In this document: positions 17,024-36,128 of the stretch, in pieces
How the letters are laid out: each line of letters opens with the position of its first letter
How positions within the stretch are numbered: the first letter of the stretch is position 1
The notes under the pieces: generated by a model
Seen by the model: only the letters and a program-made list of their open reading frames with translations
Databases searched by the model: none
Told to the model about the DNA's origin: nothing
NCBI RefSeq assembly: GCF_027625935.1
Contig: NZ_CP115300.1
Coordinates: 5,890,001 to 5,954,000, forward strand
Reading direction: 5' to 3'
DNA from: Streptomyces camelliae
GTDB lineage: Bacteria > Actinomycetota > Actinomycetes > Streptomycetales > Streptomycetaceae
Length of the DNA stretch: 64,000 bases
Position numbers and translations under genes: made by a program

Positions 17024-18171
17024 CCATCCAACTCCCGTCGGCGGACGGCACGTTGCGGACGTACGAGCCGCGCACCGAACCCCTCCTGTTCTCGGCAGGC
17101 ACCCCCTTCAGCTCCCGTACGGTCTTCTCGGCGGCCCACGTCGTCGCGGACCCTTACGCGGACACGACCCCCGACTCGCCCGCGGCCGTCGACTGGGACG
17201 CCACCCTCGCCTTCCGCCGCCACCTGTGGTCCCACGGGCTCGGTGTCGCCGAGGCGATGGACACCGCCCAGCGCGGCATGGGCCTGGACTGGGCGGGCGC
17301 GGCCGAGCTGATCCGCCGCAGCTCGGCGGAGGCGCGTTCGGTCGGCGGTCGCATCGCCTGCGGGGTCGGCACCGACCAGATCACCGGCGGCACACTCGCC
17401 GACATCCGCGCGGCCTACGAGGAACAGCTGGCCGTGGTGGAGGAGTCCGGCGCCCAGGCGATCCTGATGGCGTCGCGCGCCCTGGCCGCCGTGGCCGCGG
17501 GCCCCGAGGACTACCTGGAGATCTACGGCCACCTGCTGCGCCAGTCCGCCGAGCCGGTGATCCTGCACTGGCTGGGCCCGATGTTCGACCCGGCGCTGGA
17601 GGGCTACTGGGGCTCGGCCGACCTCGACGCGGCGACGGAGGTGTTCCTGGAGGTCATCGCCGCCCACCCGGACAAGGTGGACGGCATCAAGGTGTCGCTC
17701 CTGGACGCCCAGCGCGAGATCGACCTGCGCCGCCGCCTCCCGCAGGGCGTCCGCTGCTACACCGGCGACGACTTCAACTACCCCGAGCTGATCGCGGGCG
17801 ACGACCAGGGCTTCAGCCACGCCCTGCTGGGCATCTTCGACCCGCTGGGCCCGCTGGCGGCGCAGGCGGTACGGGTCCTGGACACGGGCGACGTGACGGG
17901 CTTCCGAGCCCTGCTGGACCCGACGGTCGACCTCTCCCGCCATCTCTTCCAGACCCCGACCCGCTTCTACAAGACGGGCGTGGTCTTCCTGGCCTGGCTC
18001 GCGGGCCACCAGTCGCACTTCACGATGGTCGGCGGCCTCCAGTCGGCCCGCTCCCTGCCGCACCTGGCCCGCGCCTACGAACTCGCCGACGGCCTGGGCC
18101 TGTTCCCGGACCCGAAGCTGGCGGAGGAGCGGATGAAGAACCTGCTGTCGCTGTACGGGGTGGACCGATGA
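17020..18171 (+). CDS. DUF993 family protein (DHDPS/aldolase-like barrel)
   Basis: A 383-residue protein of the DUF993 family, which resembles dihydrodipicolinate synthase/class I aldolases. Visible segments include GGRIACGVGTDQITGG, AILMASRALAAVAAGPEDYLEIYGHLL, a VDGIKVSLLD strand that offers a Schiff-base-type lysine, and TRFYKTGVVFLAWLAGHQSHF. The start GTG overlaps the previous stop (GTGA), so translation is coupled. The family has no activity I can name with certainty; context suggests cleavage of a keto-sugar or keto-acid made by the dehydrogenase. Confidence 0.8.
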   Translation: MTIQLPSADGTLRTYEPRTEPLLFSAGTPFSSRTVFSAAHVVADPYADTTPDSPAAVDWDATLAFRRHLWSHGLGVAEAMDTAQRGMGLDWAGAAELIRRSSAEARSVGGRIACGVGTDQITGGTLADIRAAYEEQLAVVEESGAQAILMASRALAAVAAGPEDYLEIYGHLLRQSAEPVILHWLGPMFDPALEGYWGSADLDAATEVFLEVIAAHPDKVDGIKVSLLDAQREIDLRRRLPQGVRCYTGDDFNYPELIAGDDQGFSHALLGIFDPLGPLAAQAVRVLDTGDVTGFRALLDPTVDLSRHLFQTPTRFYKTGVVFLAWLAGHQSHFTMVGGLQSARSLPHLARAYELADGLGLFPDPKLAEERMKNLLSLYGVDR

Positions 18172-19001
18172 CCGATCTCTCGCGGTTCAGCATCAACCAG
18201 ATGACGGTGAAGCAGCTGTCCCTGCCGGAACTGGCCGATGTCTGCGGCCAGTTGGGCGTGAGCCAGGTGGGCCTGTGGCGCGAACCGGTCCAGGCGTACG
18301 GCGTGGAGGCGACGGCCAAACTCATCCGTGAGGCAGGCCTGACGGTGACGACCCTGTGCCGGGGCGGCTTCTTCACGGCGATCGACCCGGAGGCCCGCGC
18401 GGCGGCGCTGGCCGACAACCGGCGCGCCATCGAGGAGGCGGCGACCCTCGGCACCGACACCCTGGTCCTGGTCTCCGGCGGCCTCCCCGCCGGCAGCAAG
18501 GACCTGCGGGCGGCCCGCGAACGCATCGCCGACGCCCTGGCCGAACTCGGGCCGTACGCCGAGCAGCACGGCGTCCGCCTGGCCATCGAGCCCCTGCACC
18601 CCATGTACGCCTCGGACCGCTGCGTGGTCTCCACCCTGGCCCAGGCCCTGGACATCGCCGAGCGCTTCCCGGCGCACCAGGTCGGGGTGGCGGTGGACAC
18701 GTACCACATCTGGTGGGACGACCAGGCCCCGGCCCAGATCGCACGGGCGGGCGCGAGCGGCCGCATCCACACCTTCCAGCTCGCCGACTGGACCACCCCG
18801 TTGCCCGAGGGCGTCCTCAACGGCCGCGGCCAGATCGGCGACGGCGCGATCGACATGCGGGAGTGGAAGGGGTACGTGGAGGCAGCCGGCTACACGGGCC
18901 CGATCGAGGTCGAACTCTTCAACGACGAGCTGTGGGCGCGGGACGGGCGGGAGGTGCTGGCGGAGACGGCGGAGCGGTTCGTGGAGCACATGGCGGACTG
19001 A
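18168..19001 (+). CDS. Sugar phosphate isomerase/epimerase
   Basis: A 277-residue xylose-isomerase-like TIM barrel and third gene of the module. It starts inside the stop of the DUF993 gene (ATGA overlap). Strand and ligand motifs include LCRGGFFTAID, LVLVSGGLPAGSKD, LAIEPLHPMYASDRC (metal-ligand Glu), GVAVDTYHIWWDD (Asp/His ligands), FQLADW and PIEVELFND (terminal Glu). It probably isomerises or epimerises the keto-sugar intermediate with a divalent metal. Confidence 0.8.
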   Translation: MTDLSRFSINQMTVKQLSLPELADVCGQLGVSQVGLWREPVQAYGVEATAKLIREAGLTVTTLCRGGFFTAIDPEARAAALADNRRAIEEAATLGTDTLVLVSGGLPAGSKDLRAARERIADALAELGPYAEQHGVRLAIEPLHPMYASDRCVVSTLAQALDIAERFPAHQVGVAVDTYHIWWDDQAPAQIARAGASGRIHTFQLADWTTPLPEGVLNGRGQIGDGAIDMREWKGYVEAAGYTGPIEVELFNDELWARDGREVLAETAERFVEHMAD

Positions 19002-19092
19002 AGGATCCGCGGCCTGCCCGCTTCCCGCGCTGACGGGCAGGCCACGGCCCTAAGATCGGCTGCGACACCCGAATGAACGGACGCCGACGCCC

Positions 19093-20505
19093 ATGTACGT
19101 CAGCCGGATCATCGTGAAGGACATCAAGTCCTTTTACGGCCCCCGCGCAGTTGACCTCACCCTGACCCGCCCCGACGGCAGTCACGCCGGGTGGACGGTG
19201 CTCGCCGGGCGCAACGGCTCGGGCAAGACGACGCTGCTGCGGGCCATGGCGCTGGCGCTCAGTGGGCCGGGGGTGGCCCGCAGCCTGGTGCCGGTGTTCG
19301 AGAACTGGGTGACCGAACAGAGCACGGCGGGTGAGGTCGAGGTCGAGATCAGCCGGGACGCGCAGCACGACCGGTTCTCGCAGGGCCGCCCGCCCGCCGG
19401 TGCCTTCTGGGCCGGGCTTCGCTGGAAGACGCCCCGCGACGGCTCGGCAGGCAGGGTTCCGATCCGCCGGGGCGTCCTGTCCGGGCTCGACGAGATCAAG
19501 TACACCAAGGCGCAGACGAGCATCGCCCGCCGTGGTCCGTGGGCGGACAATCCCGCCGGCTGGTTCTCCGCAGCCTACGGGCCGTTCCGGCGGATGGCCG
19601 GTGGCTCGGGCGAGGTGCAACGGCTGATGCTGGCGTCAGGGCCTGTGGCCAGGCACACGAGCCTCTTCCACGAGGACGCCTCACTCGCCGAGGGGGTTAC
19701 CTGGCTGATCGAGCAGCATCTGCGTGCGCTGGAAGGCAGAGGGGGCGCCCGGGGACTGAAGACGTTCGCACTGGCGCTGCTCGGAGACGGACTGCTGCCG
19801 GACGGGCACCGGATCGACGACGTCGACTCCGAGGGTTTGTGGGTCGAGCGGCACGACAGCCGCTTCCCACTGCGGGAGATGAGCGACGGGTTCCGTACGG
19901 TGGCGGCGCTTGTCGTCGACATCCTCAAGCAGCTGCACGACGTGTTCGGCGACGACCTGTGGGAGTCCGGTCCCTGGGAGGCCAGAGGCAAGTCGATCGC
20001 GCTGATGACGCCCGGGGTCGTCATCATCGACGAGATCGACGCCCATCTGCACGTCTCCTGGCAGCGCCGGATCGGCCCCTGGCTGACCGCCCACTTCCCC
20101 CGCATCCAGTTCATCGTCACCACCCACAGCCCCTACATCTGCCAGGCCGCGGATCCAGGCGGCCTGATCCGGCTGCCGGGCGTGGACGAGGCGCGCCCGC
20201 CCGAGGTCATCGACCAGGATCTGTACGACCGAGTGGTGTACGGCAGCGGCGACGACGCGGTTCTCTCCGACCTCTTCGGTCTCGACACGCCCTACTCCGA
20301 GCGGGCCGAGCAGGTGAGGGCCGAGTTCGTGCAGTTGGAGGCGGAGATCTACGACGGGGCCTCGTCACGGGAGTCGCTCGCCCGCTACCGGGAACTCAAG
20401 GACCGGCTTGCCAGCTCGCCGTCGGCCCGTGTGGACGAGGTGAGCGCGCACCTCCGCCGGATCGGGGAGGAGATCACCGGGGGTCCGAAGGACGAAGAGG
20501 AGTGA
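19093..20505 (+). CDS. AAA/ABC-type ATPase, PtuA-like (Septu candidate)
   Basis: A 470-residue ATPase of the RecF/SMC-related AAA class: Walker A G39-RNGSGKT-46, an arginine-rich middle region with a DGFRTVAAL segment in the signature position, Walker B VVIIDEIDAHLH (about 310-320) followed by SWQ, and the switch TTHSPYICQAAD (about 340-350). It lacks the long coiled-coil arms of SMC proteins. It ends in an acidic tail whose stop overlaps the start of an HNH gene (GTGA). ATPase plus HNH in this order is the architecture of Septu defence (PtuA-PtuB), also found as retron-associated effectors. PtuA is thought to hold PtuB and respond to nucleotide depletion. The defence role here is inferred. 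Confidence 0.75.
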   Translation: MYVSRIIVKDIKSFYGPRAVDLTLTRPDGSHAGWTVLAGRNGSGKTTLLRAMALALSGPGVARSLVPVFENWVTEQSTAGEVEVEISRDAQHDRFSQGRPPAGAFWAGLRWKTPRDGSAGRVPIRRGVLSGLDEIKYTKAQTSIARRGPWADNPAGWFSAAYGPFRRMAGGSGEVQRLMLASGPVARHTSLFHEDASLAEGVTWLIEQHLRALEGRGGARGLKTFALALLGDGLLPDGHRIDDVDSEGLWVERHDSRFPLREMSDGFRTVAALVVDILKQLHDVFGDDLWESGPWEARGKSIALMTPGVVIIDEIDAHLHVSWQRRIGPWLTAHFPRIQFIVTTHSPYICQAADPGGLIRLPGVDEARPPEVIDQDLYDRVVYGSGDDAVLSDLFGLDTPYSERAEQVRAEFVQLEAEIYDGASSRESLARYRELKDRLASSPSARVDEVSAHLRRIGEEITGGPKDEEE

Positions 20506-21263
20506 TCCGGCTTCGGCGTGCGGTTCTGTCTGCGGTCACGACGGAGCTGCTGAGGGGCTACACCGACGACATCCGGCAGCAGGCCACGGAGAAGCAGCGC
20601 AAGGACAGGGCGAAGCAACTCTGGGCGAATAGACGAAAGGTCCGCCCCGCACTCTTCGCGGGGCTTGCGGAGATGGCGCCCGGCCACGAACGCTGCATGT
20701 ACTGCGGTGACGGACAAGGCACGGACATCGACCACTTCGAGCCGAAGAGCCTCGCTCCGCTGCGTACCTTCGACTGGCTCAACCATCTGCTGGCCTGCTC
20801 GTTCTGCAACAGCAACCAGAAACGGAACCTCTTCCCCACCGCGGCCGACGGCAGCCCGCTGCTCGTCGACCCGACGGCCGAGGACCCGTTGGACCACCTA
20901 CGGCTGGTGCTCCCGCTCGGAACGTACCAGGGTCTGACCGACCGGGGGCGGGCCTGTATCGACGTGTTCGGCCTCAACAAAAGAGCGGTCCTGGTCAAGG
21001 GACGCACGGACGCCTATGCGACGGCCAGGCACTCAATCGAGCTGTGGCGCATGGCCATGGACAAGGGGCAACGTGACAAGGCGACGGAGATCGTCCGTGT
21101 CTCCTGGAACCGCCCCCTGGTCGATGTCCTGGTCGCCATGTTCCACCAGTCCGGCCATCCGGCGGCCGATGTCCTGTTCGCGGGGGAGGAGGAGGTCCTC
21201 GACCTCCTCCACGATGCCGAACTGCGGTCCGCGTTTCTGCACTTCCGGGGTGTCAGCTACTGA
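20502..21263 (+). CDS. HNH endonuclease, PtuB-like (Septu candidate)
   Basis: A 253-residue protein with the zinc-bound HNH/treble-clef core of the retron/Septu HNH family: C65-x2-C68, D75-I-D77-H78-F-x-P-K-S, W92-L-N94, and C99-x2-C102-N103 followed by NQKRNLFP. A basic helical N-terminus (KQRKDRAKQLW) precedes it and a helical C-terminal part follows the nuclease. The GTG start lies within the stop of the ATPase, so the two are made together. It would cut DNA when released by the ATPase on phage attack. Other HNH roles, such as homing, are less likely given the coupled ATPase. The 3' end overlaps an antisense DUF397-like remnant. Confidence 0.75.
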   Translation: MIRLRRAVLSAVTTELLRGYTDDIRQQATEKQRKDRAKQLWANRRKVRPALFAGLAEMAPGHERCMYCGDGQGTDIDHFEPKSLAPLRTFDWLNHLLACSFCNSNQKRNLFPTAADGSPLLVDPTAEDPLDHLRLVLPLGTYQGLTDRGRACIDVFGLNKRAVLVKGRTDAYATARHSIELWRMAMDKGQRDKATEIVRVSWNRPLVDVLVAMFHQSGHPAADVLFAGEEEVLDLLHDAELRSAFLHFRGVSY

Positions 21264-21345
21264 GACGCCCGTCCCGCACGGCCCCGCCGAACGCGGCCCA
21301 GCCGTCGGTCGAGAAGATGAGGGCAGGACCGGTGGTGCAGCGTTC
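21253..21345 (-). pseudogene. DUF397-like 3' remnant
   Basis: The reverse strand encodes GPALIFSTDGWAAFGGAVRDG and ends at a TGA (complement of 21253-21255). This is the typical C-terminal half of a DUF397 protein (compare PALTFTPAEWAAFxxGVKDGEF). The conserved N-terminal WRKSSYSG part is missing, and upstream reading gives no DUF397 or HTH sequence. It overlaps the end of the HNH gene by 11 bp, which suggests that the defence pair was inserted into or beside an XRE-DUF397 locus. Confidence 0.55.
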
Positions 21346-21655
21346 AGATGACCGGCTGCTCGGGGCCGTCGAGGATTCGGCGGCGTTTTGTTCGGATGAC
21401 GACGAACTCGTCAAGTTCCTCGGCCGTGTAGTTCGGTCGGCTGGACCACGCGGCCGAACTCCTCGCCGAACAGCGGCTCACCGGTGAGGAACTGCGCTAT
21501 CTGGCCCGGCGGCTCAGCGAGTCCCTGGCGGATGTCAAGCGGATAGCGGAGAGCAGAGGCGCGCGCCTTGGCCGGGTGGACCACGATGCCGAGTTGCGGC
21601 GCGGATCAGGTCCCCGCAGGCTGGATCTGGCGAGCGGCCTCGATGACGTGAAGAG
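21317..21655 (+). pseudogene. Gene debris between the HNH gene and the haloperoxidase-like gene
   Basis: Two overlapping forward frames look protein-like. One runs from ATG 21317 to TGA 21485-21487 (56 codons: RAGPVVQRSDDRLLG..., EDSAAFCSDDDELVKFLGRV). The other is open from a TAG near 21430 to a TGA just before 21660 and reads as an Ala/Arg/Glu helix (LDHAAELLAEQRLTGEELRY, then LARRLSESLADVKRIAESRG) but has no start codon at its beginning. One base change would join them into a single small helical protein, so this is probably a frameshifted remnant. I recognise no family. Confidence 0.35.
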
Positions 21656-22924
21656 GTGATCGGGTTGCGGAAGACACTCGCCGTACTGACCGGAATCGCG
21701 CTGGCAGCCGGACTCACCAGTCCCGCATTCGGGACAGGCGCCGCCCCCTCGCCCACCGCGGCCACGGCGTCGGGGACGGCGGTCGTGGAATGGAACCGCG
21801 AGCTCATCACCATCCTCGGCGATCCGAAAGCGCAGCCCGCCACAATCCAGCCCACGCGCAGCTTCGCGCTCCTCCAGGCCGCCGAGTACGACGCGGTGGT
21901 GTCGATCAGCCGGGGCGGCCCCGCCTACCTGTTCTCGGTGTCGGCGCCGCGAGGCGCTCGTGCGGATGCCGCGGCGGACCAGGCGGCCCACGATGTGCTG
22001 GTCGCCCTGTACCCGGGCAAGCGCGCGGGCGTGGACCAGCGGCTGAGCAGCCAGCTGTCCACGATTCCGGGCGGCCCGGACAAGCAGGCGGGCACGGCTG
22101 TGGGAGCCGAGGTCGCCCGCAGGCTGATCAGCCTGCGGTCCGACGACGGGTCCTCGGCGACACCGCCGCCGTTCCACCCCGGCGACAAGGCCGGTGACTA
22201 CCGGCCCACCCCTCCCGACCACCCGGCACCGGTGTTCACCGACTGGGGCTCGGTCAAGCCGTTCGTGCTGACCAGCGGACGCCAGTTCCGCCCGGCAGCA
22301 CCGCCGGCCGTGAGCAGCGGCGCGTACGCCACCGCCTTGAACGAGGTCAAGGGCCTGGGCAGCAAGACCAGTACCACGCGCACCGCCGATCAGACCGCGG
22401 CCGCGAAGTTCTGGTCGGCGGCGCCCGTCTGGAACGTCTGGAACCAGATCGCGCAGAACCTGGTCACCTCCCAGAACACGAGCCTGGAGCAGGCGGTGAA
22501 GGTCTTCGCCCGGCTCGACCTCTCCCTCGCCGACACCACCATCGCGACGTACGACGCCAAGTACACCTACCGCGTGTGGCGGCCCGTGACCGCCATCCGG
22601 CTCGGCGGTACGCACTACAACCCGCGCATCGTCGGCGACCCCAACTGGACCCCCCTGCTGAAGACCGCCCCGGATCCGTCCTACCCCAGCGCTCACGCCG
22701 CCCTCAGCCAGGCGGCGGCAACGACGCTCGCCGGGTTCTACGGTGCGCGGCACCGGCTCACGGTGACGTCGAAGGGCATCACCCGCACCTTCGCCGGCTT
22801 CCAGGACGCCGCCACCGAAGCGTGGCTCAGCCGGATCTGGGCCGGCCAGCACACCTCTCTCGACAACCGCGCGGGACAGCAACTCGGCACGCAGGTGGCG
22901 GGCTTCGTGGCAGGCCGGCTCTGA
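21656..22924 (+). CDS. Exported vanadium-dependent haloperoxidase/PAP2-superfamily protein
   Basis: A 422-residue protein with a signal peptide (about 1-27, ending near PAFG). The C-terminal half carries the three-part active site shared by vanadium haloperoxidases and acid phosphatases: K302-YTYRVW-R309-P310, P344-S-A-H347, and S392-R393-IWAGQ-H399-TSL-D403. The long helical N-terminal half fits the vanadium-chloroperoxidase-like bacterial group rather than small PAP2 phosphatases. It may oxidise halide with H2O2 or hydrolyse phosphate. The start is uncertain: GTG at 21656, or TTG at 21665, which has the better spacing to AAGAGG at 21651-21656. It starts just after the debris region. Confidence 0.75.
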   Translation: MIGLRKTLAVLTGIALAAGLTSPAFGTGAAPSPTAATASGTAVVEWNRELITILGDPKAQPATIQPTRSFALLQAAEYDAVVSISRGGPAYLFSVSAPRGARADAAADQAAHDVLVALYPGKRAGVDQRLSSQLSTIPGGPDKQAGTAVGAEVARRLISLRSDDGSSATPPPFHPGDKAGDYRPTPPDHPAPVFTDWGSVKPFVLTSGRQFRPAAPPAVSSGAYATALNEVKGLGSKTSTTRTADQTAAAKFWSAAPVWNVWNQIAQNLVTSQNTSLEQAVKVFARLDLSLADTTIATYDAKYTYRVWRPVTAIRLGGTHYNPRIVGDPNWTPLLKTAPDPSYPSAHAALSQAAATTLAGFYGARHRLTVTSKGITRTFAGFQDAATEAWLSRIWAGQHTSLDNRAGQQLGTQVAGFVAGRL

Positions 22925-35945: not shown

Positions 35946-36128
35946 ATGGACAACTGGCGGAAGTCGTCCTACTCGGGCCCCGGCGACGGGAACGAGTGCG
36001 TGGAGATCGCGACCTCACCCACCCACATAGCCATCCGCGACTCCAAAACCCCCACCCGAGCCACCCTCACCTTCCCCACCCCCGCCTTCACCACCTTCCT
36101 CGAAGCCCTGAAGAAGGCGGACCGGTAA
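35946..36128 (+). CDS. DUF397 small protein
   Basis: A 60-residue DUF397 protein: WRKSSYSGPGDGNECVEIA, IAIRDSKTP, LTFPTPAFTTFLEALKK. It partners the upstream XRE-DUF5753 regulator, probably as an antagonist as in WhiJ/BldB-type systems. ATG at 35946 with the site inside the end of the preceding gene (AGGAACACC). Confidence 0.9.
   Translation: MDNWRKSSYSGPGDGNECVEIATSPTHIAIRDSKTPTRATLTFPTPAFTTFLEALKKADR

Follow-up and report, generated by a model that had tools for sequence, protein, structure and literature searches.

The window, a 64,000-nucleotide stretch of the Streptomyces camelliae chromosome, carries a pair of genes, ptuA and ptuB, that very probably forms a stand-alone Septu system with a role in anti-phage defence, the role being assigned by homology. 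That ptuAB is an ordinary Septu pair of an already known family is well supported. The pair and its upstream surroundings comprise the following features.

18168..19001, + strand: flanking isomerase gene (xylose isomerase-like TIM barrel, Pfam PF01261), left edge of the locus
19011..19043, + strand: hairpin in the isomerase-ptuA intergenic region (strong fold, no U run)
19093..20505, + strand: ptuA, ABC-type ATPase, 470 aa
20502..21263, + strand: ptuB, HNH nuclease family, 253 aa, GTG start

Gene layout and conservation

Both open reading frames are intact, and the stop codon of ptuA shares four bases (GTGA) with the GTG start of ptuB. An earlier sequence-only reading of this DNA had described an ATPase gene (19093-20505) overlapping an HNH gene (20502-21263), each with named motifs, and this description was confirmed. 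The PtuA motifs are Walker A (GRNGSGKTT), Walker B (VVIIDEIDAHLH), and the switch (TTHSP), and those of PtuB are CMYC, DIDHFEPKS, and CSFCN. Conservation was assessed using one alignment per protein, each consisting of the window sequence and 36 sequences chosen by hand out of 120 listed. Among the 37 sequences, PtuA residues D313, E314, H318, H320, S264-G266, and T343-P347 were invariant, and the Walker A residues G39-G42, G44, K45, and T46 were at least 90% conserved, the Walker A part being missing from one row, which is a fragment. Invariant residues of PtuB were C65, C68, D77, H78, N94, C99, C102, and N103, and the remaining motif positions varied in both alignments. PtuA is therefore placed with Septu as an ABC-type ATPase having Walker A, Walker B, and a signature-like motif, and PtuB as a PtuB-family HNH nuclease. 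The order ptuA-ptuB in a putative operon is that of Septu, and the same layout recurs in four other genomes (G278, G368, G386, and G019).

Compared with five relatives, dN/dS was 0.16-0.21 for ptuA and 0.23-0.35 for ptuB, and both genes are under purifying selection. The only match to PtuA in its own genome at E<=0.001 was PtuA itself. The region from 18999 to 19092 was predicted to fold at -41.6 kcal/mol (z -2.8), with 2 of 200 shuffled sequences equally low; the hairpin within it, the sequence of which is retained in the scar loci G389 and G013, is possibly the end of the upstream transcript. No consensus sigma-70 promoter was detected in 18950-21700, the consensus being uninformative for Streptomyces.

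Assignment to the Septu family

Both proteins matched PADLOC Septu profiles (families PtuA1/PtuB1) over nearly their full length, as the proposed Septu-like identity had predicted: PDLC00269 (PtuA) matched the ATPase with 601 bits in a single stretch covering residues 1-455, and PDLC00317 (PtuB) matched the HNH protein with 310 bits over residues 1-245. Chance is ruled out because of these family scores and the dN/dS values of the two genes. The best Pfam match was AAA_21, and HNH fell just under its cut-off. An ATPase partner accompanies the HNH protein, which removes the earlier caveat that it might belong to a homing or toxin family lacking such a partner.

The second-best PADLOC group for both proteins was mREase_IV (PDLC03660, 381 bits; PDLC03661, 183 bits), and the pair could on this basis be a type IV methyl-directed restriction system that cuts modified DNA directly. 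This is very unlikely, as the Septu models outscore it (601 and 310 bits), PDLC03660 matches best at residues 156-456 and has another stretch elsewhere while PDLC00269 spans 1-455 in one piece, and the structural neighbours of PtuA found with its model are Septu and retron I-A entries. When compared with the sequences of solved structures, PtuA matched Septu PtuA 8ee4 best (1e-15), followed by retron PtuA; PtuB gave a weak match to retron PtuB (0.0012) and one of 0.084 to Septu PtuB 8ee7. A Foldseek search with the predicted PtuA model (mean pLDDT of 68) returned Septu or retron I-A chains in all of the best 50 rows shown (best E 4e-15), and alignments with solved PtuA chains had 16-19% identity, TM-scores of approximately 0.4-0.6, and rmsd of 7-18 A. 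The predicted PtuB model, which has pLDDT <50 over the HNH core (residues 64-109), gave a best E of 0.23 against the PDB, which is not significant, the two best rows being retron Ec78/Eco7 complexes.

The pair resembles E. coli Septu (8ee4, 8eea; EcB88) in the order of ATPase and HNH genes, the PADLOC families, the Walker and HNH motifs, and the fold of PtuA. It differs in belonging to an actinobacterial branch, with 16-19% identity in the structural alignment, and in that many of its relatives adjoin an XRE-DUF397 module. Both of its families are also those of the PtuAB effectors of retron I-A systems (Ec78/Eco7, Ec83), whose PtuA chains, among those listed, are mostly 542-552 aa in length compared to 470 aa here. 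The NCBIfam retron Ec78 models for PtuA and PtuB scored 95.9 and 25.4 bits, far under their cut-offs of 500 and 150. Across the whole genome there were two RVT_1 matches, located approximately 608 and 643 kb from ptuAB; the retron link mentioned in the sequence-only reading was not borne out, and retron I-A identity was rejected because no reverse transcriptase is found closer than 600 kb.

Distribution and history of the locus

Among 392 Streptomyces genomes, 41 had a PtuA match at E<=1e-40, in agreement with the earlier expectation that the pair is not universal in the genus; the flanking isomerase, a conserved neighbour used for synteny, was found at E<=1e-60 in 351. Seventeen of the 41 PtuA genomes were placed at this locus using fetched stretches. 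PtuA was located no more than 3.3 kb from the isomerase gene in 11 of them (G000, G278, G368, G110, G386, G062, G149, G363, G057, G019, and G351) and 4-12 kb from it in four (G155, G284, G079, and G366). In G391, broken frames lie at a distance of 1.5 kb from fragments of the isomerase gene; G100 has no isomerase match and carries the LacI gene of the locus. For the remaining 24 PtuA genomes, the isomerase was absent from the fetched 9.5-15 kb in 23 (G165 left out). Two further arrangements were observed: G068 and G091 each have two PtuA copies, one towards either end of the chromosome contig (L132, L143, and the mirrored positions), which may belong to terminal inverted repeats, and in G366 a second PtuB-like fragment (L090, 8072-8230; residues 158-210, 38% identity) lies between the isomerase gene and the Septu pair.

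A quick PtuA tree of 108 rows (117 gathered, identical sequences merged), in which 29 of 105 inner branches were open and several branches were long, placed all 24 rows that have an isomerase within 13 kb in one 30-row clade (SH-aLRT 100). The pair is present in three isomerase groups, with 67-76% identity between the members of one group and the references of the others. A single PtuA clade spanning three isomerase groups therefore points to either long residence of the pair or its repeated re-entry by recombination of the flanks.

As the sequence-only reading had anticipated, the pair is missing from the locus in relatives, namely 15 near relatives without an intact pair and two carriers of remnants. 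In G259, the sole genome marked as the same species, the flanks are 97% identical and approximately 19015-21150 is replaced by one base, with the scar retaining the final 30 ptuB codons and the tail of DUF397; this genome lost the pair by a 2.1-kb deletion. The edges of the deletion (window 19003-19016 and 21151-21165) lie at inverted repeats of 14-15 nt, the other arms of which are inside ptuA; these repeats may be due to chance, as a 2.9-kb stretch contained 11 inverted pairs. Among the 17 loci without an intact pair, pieces of ptuAB were present in four (G259, G013, G029, and G389), debris pieces alone in two (G291 and G260), and no trace in 11; G013 and G029 were picked for their remnants, and when they are left out, remnants of either kind are present in 4 of 15 pairless loci. 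Broken copies of ptuAB occur in G155, G284, and G049.

These losses bear on the possibility that the pair is a leftover in this strain or serves a host function other than defence. The decay of the neighbouring module, the pairless same-species genome G259, and the broken copies in G155, G284, and G049 would fit such a view, which is nevertheless improbable: neither frame is broken, comparison with five relatives shows purifying selection on both, and patchy presence with frequent loss is usual among defence genes.

The two genes of the pair may not always have shared one history. In G062, G386, and G079, the isomerase and ptuB belong to the group of the window (SH-aLRT 87 and 93), and ptuA instead groups with other isomerase groups (SH-aLRT 100). 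The pair of G386 (L085) is a mosaic in which ptuA is 75% and ptuB 90% identical to the window genes. At shared fourfold sites, ptuB of the window differed by 14-22% from seven of nine relatives, the flanking genes of which differed by 26-48%; against the other two relatives, ptuB differed by 32 and 38% and did not stand out. The corresponding range for ptuA was 15-49%. The conflict between the ptuA and ptuB trees and the low divergence of ptuB therefore suggest that single genes of the pair recombined at this locus.

Debris downstream of the pair

The interval between ptuB and the PAP2 gene contains three collapsed gene pieces, in the same order as in relatives (DUF397, XRE, fourth gene).

21256..21342, - strand: DUF397 (BldB-like) remnant, residues 58-86 (tblastn with the G386 DUF397 protein, 69%, 9e-11)
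21323..21436, - strand: XRE/DUF5753 (WhiJ-like) remnant, residues 147-184 (tblastn with the G386 XRE protein, 76%, 2e-13)
21441..21569, + strand: remnant of the module's fourth gene, residues 67-109 (tblastn with the G155 gene, 58%, 1e-11)

The alignments identify the debris as what is left of a collapsed XRE-DUF397 (WhiJ/BldB-type) module that is recognisable in relatives. Intact XRE and DUF397 genes were not found beside the window pair, which is accompanied by fragments only. A further DUF397 motif match, possibly part of another XRE-DUF397 pair, occurs in the window at 35955 on the + strand.

In G386 (L085), the module has open frames of 295 and 86 aa, the XRE protein consisting of HTH (HTH_31/HTH_3) and DUF5753 domains and the second protein of DUF397. 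Two further small proteins of this module matched no Pfam family at E<=0.01, and PADLOC gave weak HTH matches at most for the module proteins. XRE and DUF397 genes convergent to PtuA were present in nine of the 16 other genomes placed at the locus (G386, G057, G019, G100, G363, G155, G366, G149, and G351), in G149 and G351 at a distance of 1.4-1.6 kb. G278 has DUF397 without XRE at the locus, and no trace of the module was detected in the fetched stretch of the other six (G110, G062, G079, G368, G284, and G391).

The DUF397 domain is common to BldB paralogues, which adjoin WhiJ and often abaA paralogues. The HTH_31/HTH_3 plus DUF5753 protein and the DUF397 protein encoded next to Septu in relatives resemble the WhiJ/BldB modules of Streptomyces. 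The published modules differ in adjoining abaA paralogues or iosA (PMC10294661; also PMC10364602), Septu being unnamed in the available portions of these sources, and the window differs from them in keeping only fragments. XRE-DUF397 pairs have been proposed as toxin-antitoxin systems, and one regulates antibiotic production, according to PMC10364602, PMC6262351, and PMC7159879.

The sequence-only reading had taken the debris, a DUF397 remnant and a frameshifted frame, as the mark of an insertion site. The remnant and the frame are real, and the reading of them as such a mark did not hold, because relatives carry the module and the same-species genome G259 lost the pair by deletion. A recent insertion of the pair at this spot is accordingly most unlikely. 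It could draw on codon composition, as GC3 is lower in ptuA (0.90) and ptuB (0.85) than in three upstream genes (0.95-0.96), yet two downstream genes are also low (0.91 and 0.89); the small fourfold divergence of ptuB from seven of nine relatives would likewise suggest lateral exchange at the same site. Opposed to this, one PtuA clade holds the pair here across three isomerase groups (67-76% identity of members to the references of other groups), pairless loci carry pieces of ptuAB, and the debris is an old neighbouring module. Integrase or transposase families were absent from the six window neighbours scanned, and no direct repeats of >70% identity flank the pair on both sides. Recent insertion was rejected on the identity of the debris, the single PtuA clade, the remnant-bearing loci, and the lack of flanking direct repeats.

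Origins on a plasmid or a phage were also rejected. PtuA was found at E<=1e-60 in four of 72,556 plasmid records (best match 62% identical), and none of 50,697 phage records gave a match at E<=1e-40.

Linkage of Septu and XRE-DUF397 modules beyond the locus

DUF397 lies no more than 2 kb from PtuA in 33 of the 108 tree rows and is not so placed in 75, with the 2-kb limit having been chosen after the data were seen and the window row set by hand as not linked because the window holds only fragments. The linked state requires at least 12 changes on this tree. For the best 80 of 515 confirmed PtuA loci, DUF397 was found within 2 kb in 21 and within 1 kb in 14. The density of DUF397 around these best 80 loci was 163 per Mb in the first 500 bases, 13 and 45 per Mb up to 2 kb, and 0-18 per Mb beyond, and the background in ten whole Streptomyces genomes was approximately 4.7 per Mb (457 matches, 33-56 per genome).

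The arrangement of the module varies. It is downstream and convergent at this locus and in Thermobifida cellulosilytica (L212), upstream and co-directional (XRE-DUF397-ptuA-ptuB) in G096, G388, G393, and S. hirsutus (L179), and upstream and divergent in Saccharothrix (seven loci), G295, and G022, with the fourth gene of the module directly before ptuA in the latter two genomes. In G295 (L137, 5406-8173), two small module genes precede ptuA/ptuB on the same strand, possibly as a four-gene operon, with XRE-DUF397 divergent. In G332 (L153), XRE-DUF397 is followed by ptuB, with no ptuA match in between.

When PtuA sequences were clustered, the clusters linked by majority numbered 2 of 18 at 65% identity, 4 of 32 at 70%, 6 of 41 at 75%, and 8 of 53 at 80%, for binomial P values of 0.045, 0.003, 1e-4, and 7e-6, respectively, against an expectation of 1.9% based on the density in the ten Streptomyces genomes, although some of the loci belong to other genera. 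With the cluster of the window removed, the counts were 2/17, 3/31, 5/40, and 8/52 (P 0.041, 0.021, 9e-4, and 6e-6), figures limited by the lower independence of finer clusters and by a DUF397 profile derived from these same loci. The evidence for enrichment of XRE-DUF397 near Septu is moderate, and the link between Septu and the module is a lead that is not established, with regulatory coupling as a hypothesis. No paper naming both DUF397 and Septu, or both WhiJ and antiphage, was found in the literature searched.

Predicted mechanism and significance

In known systems, PtuA forms an oligomer with PtuB. By homology, the PtuA ATPase of the window would form an oligomer that both carries and restrains the HNH nuclease PtuB. 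Phage infection would then release the complex to cut nucleic acid (phage DNA or host tRNA), and this cutting would block the production of phage, usually sacrificing the cell. In EcB88, an E. coli Septu, defence is abolished by mutating H75 or N91 of PtuB and likewise K43 or D316 of PtuA (PMC13096335); the 16-residue spacing of H78 and N94 in the window PtuB equals that of H75 and N91. PMC11555353 describes depletion of tRNA-Tyr by the PtuAB of Retron-Eco7 and reports that the Septu of E. coli ATCC 25922 targets DNA. The nuclease target of the window pair is not readable here because known PtuAB systems differ in this way (PMC11555353).

With regard to history, ptuAB appears to have been long settled at one chromosomal spot in a Streptomyces clade, many members having it beside an XRE-DUF397 module; it is inherited and apparently exchanged at that spot and is frequently lost via deletion. 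In this genome, the neighbouring module has decayed and ptuAB is still intact. At the level of titles and the beginnings of abstracts, no Septu assay in any actinobacterium was recognised in the literature searched, and the word Septu does not appear in the main text, as available, of a survey of actinobacterial defence systems (PMC10482375). The Septu studies drawn on here concern E. coli, and the window adds, from a genus amenable to manipulation, an intact pair of actinobacterial origin whose locus history is clear.

A more speculative and rather doubtful proposal is that actinobacteria repeatedly recruited WhiJ/BldB-type XRE-DUF397 modules as a control or safety device for Septu. If true, the modules would hold PtuAB switched off, or increase it during some life-cycle stage or upon infection; anti-phage defence would be coupled to development, and the window would represent a Septu system freed from its ancestral regulator. 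Should a wider census bear it out, the linkage would tie a large set of Streptomyces regulators to phage defence.
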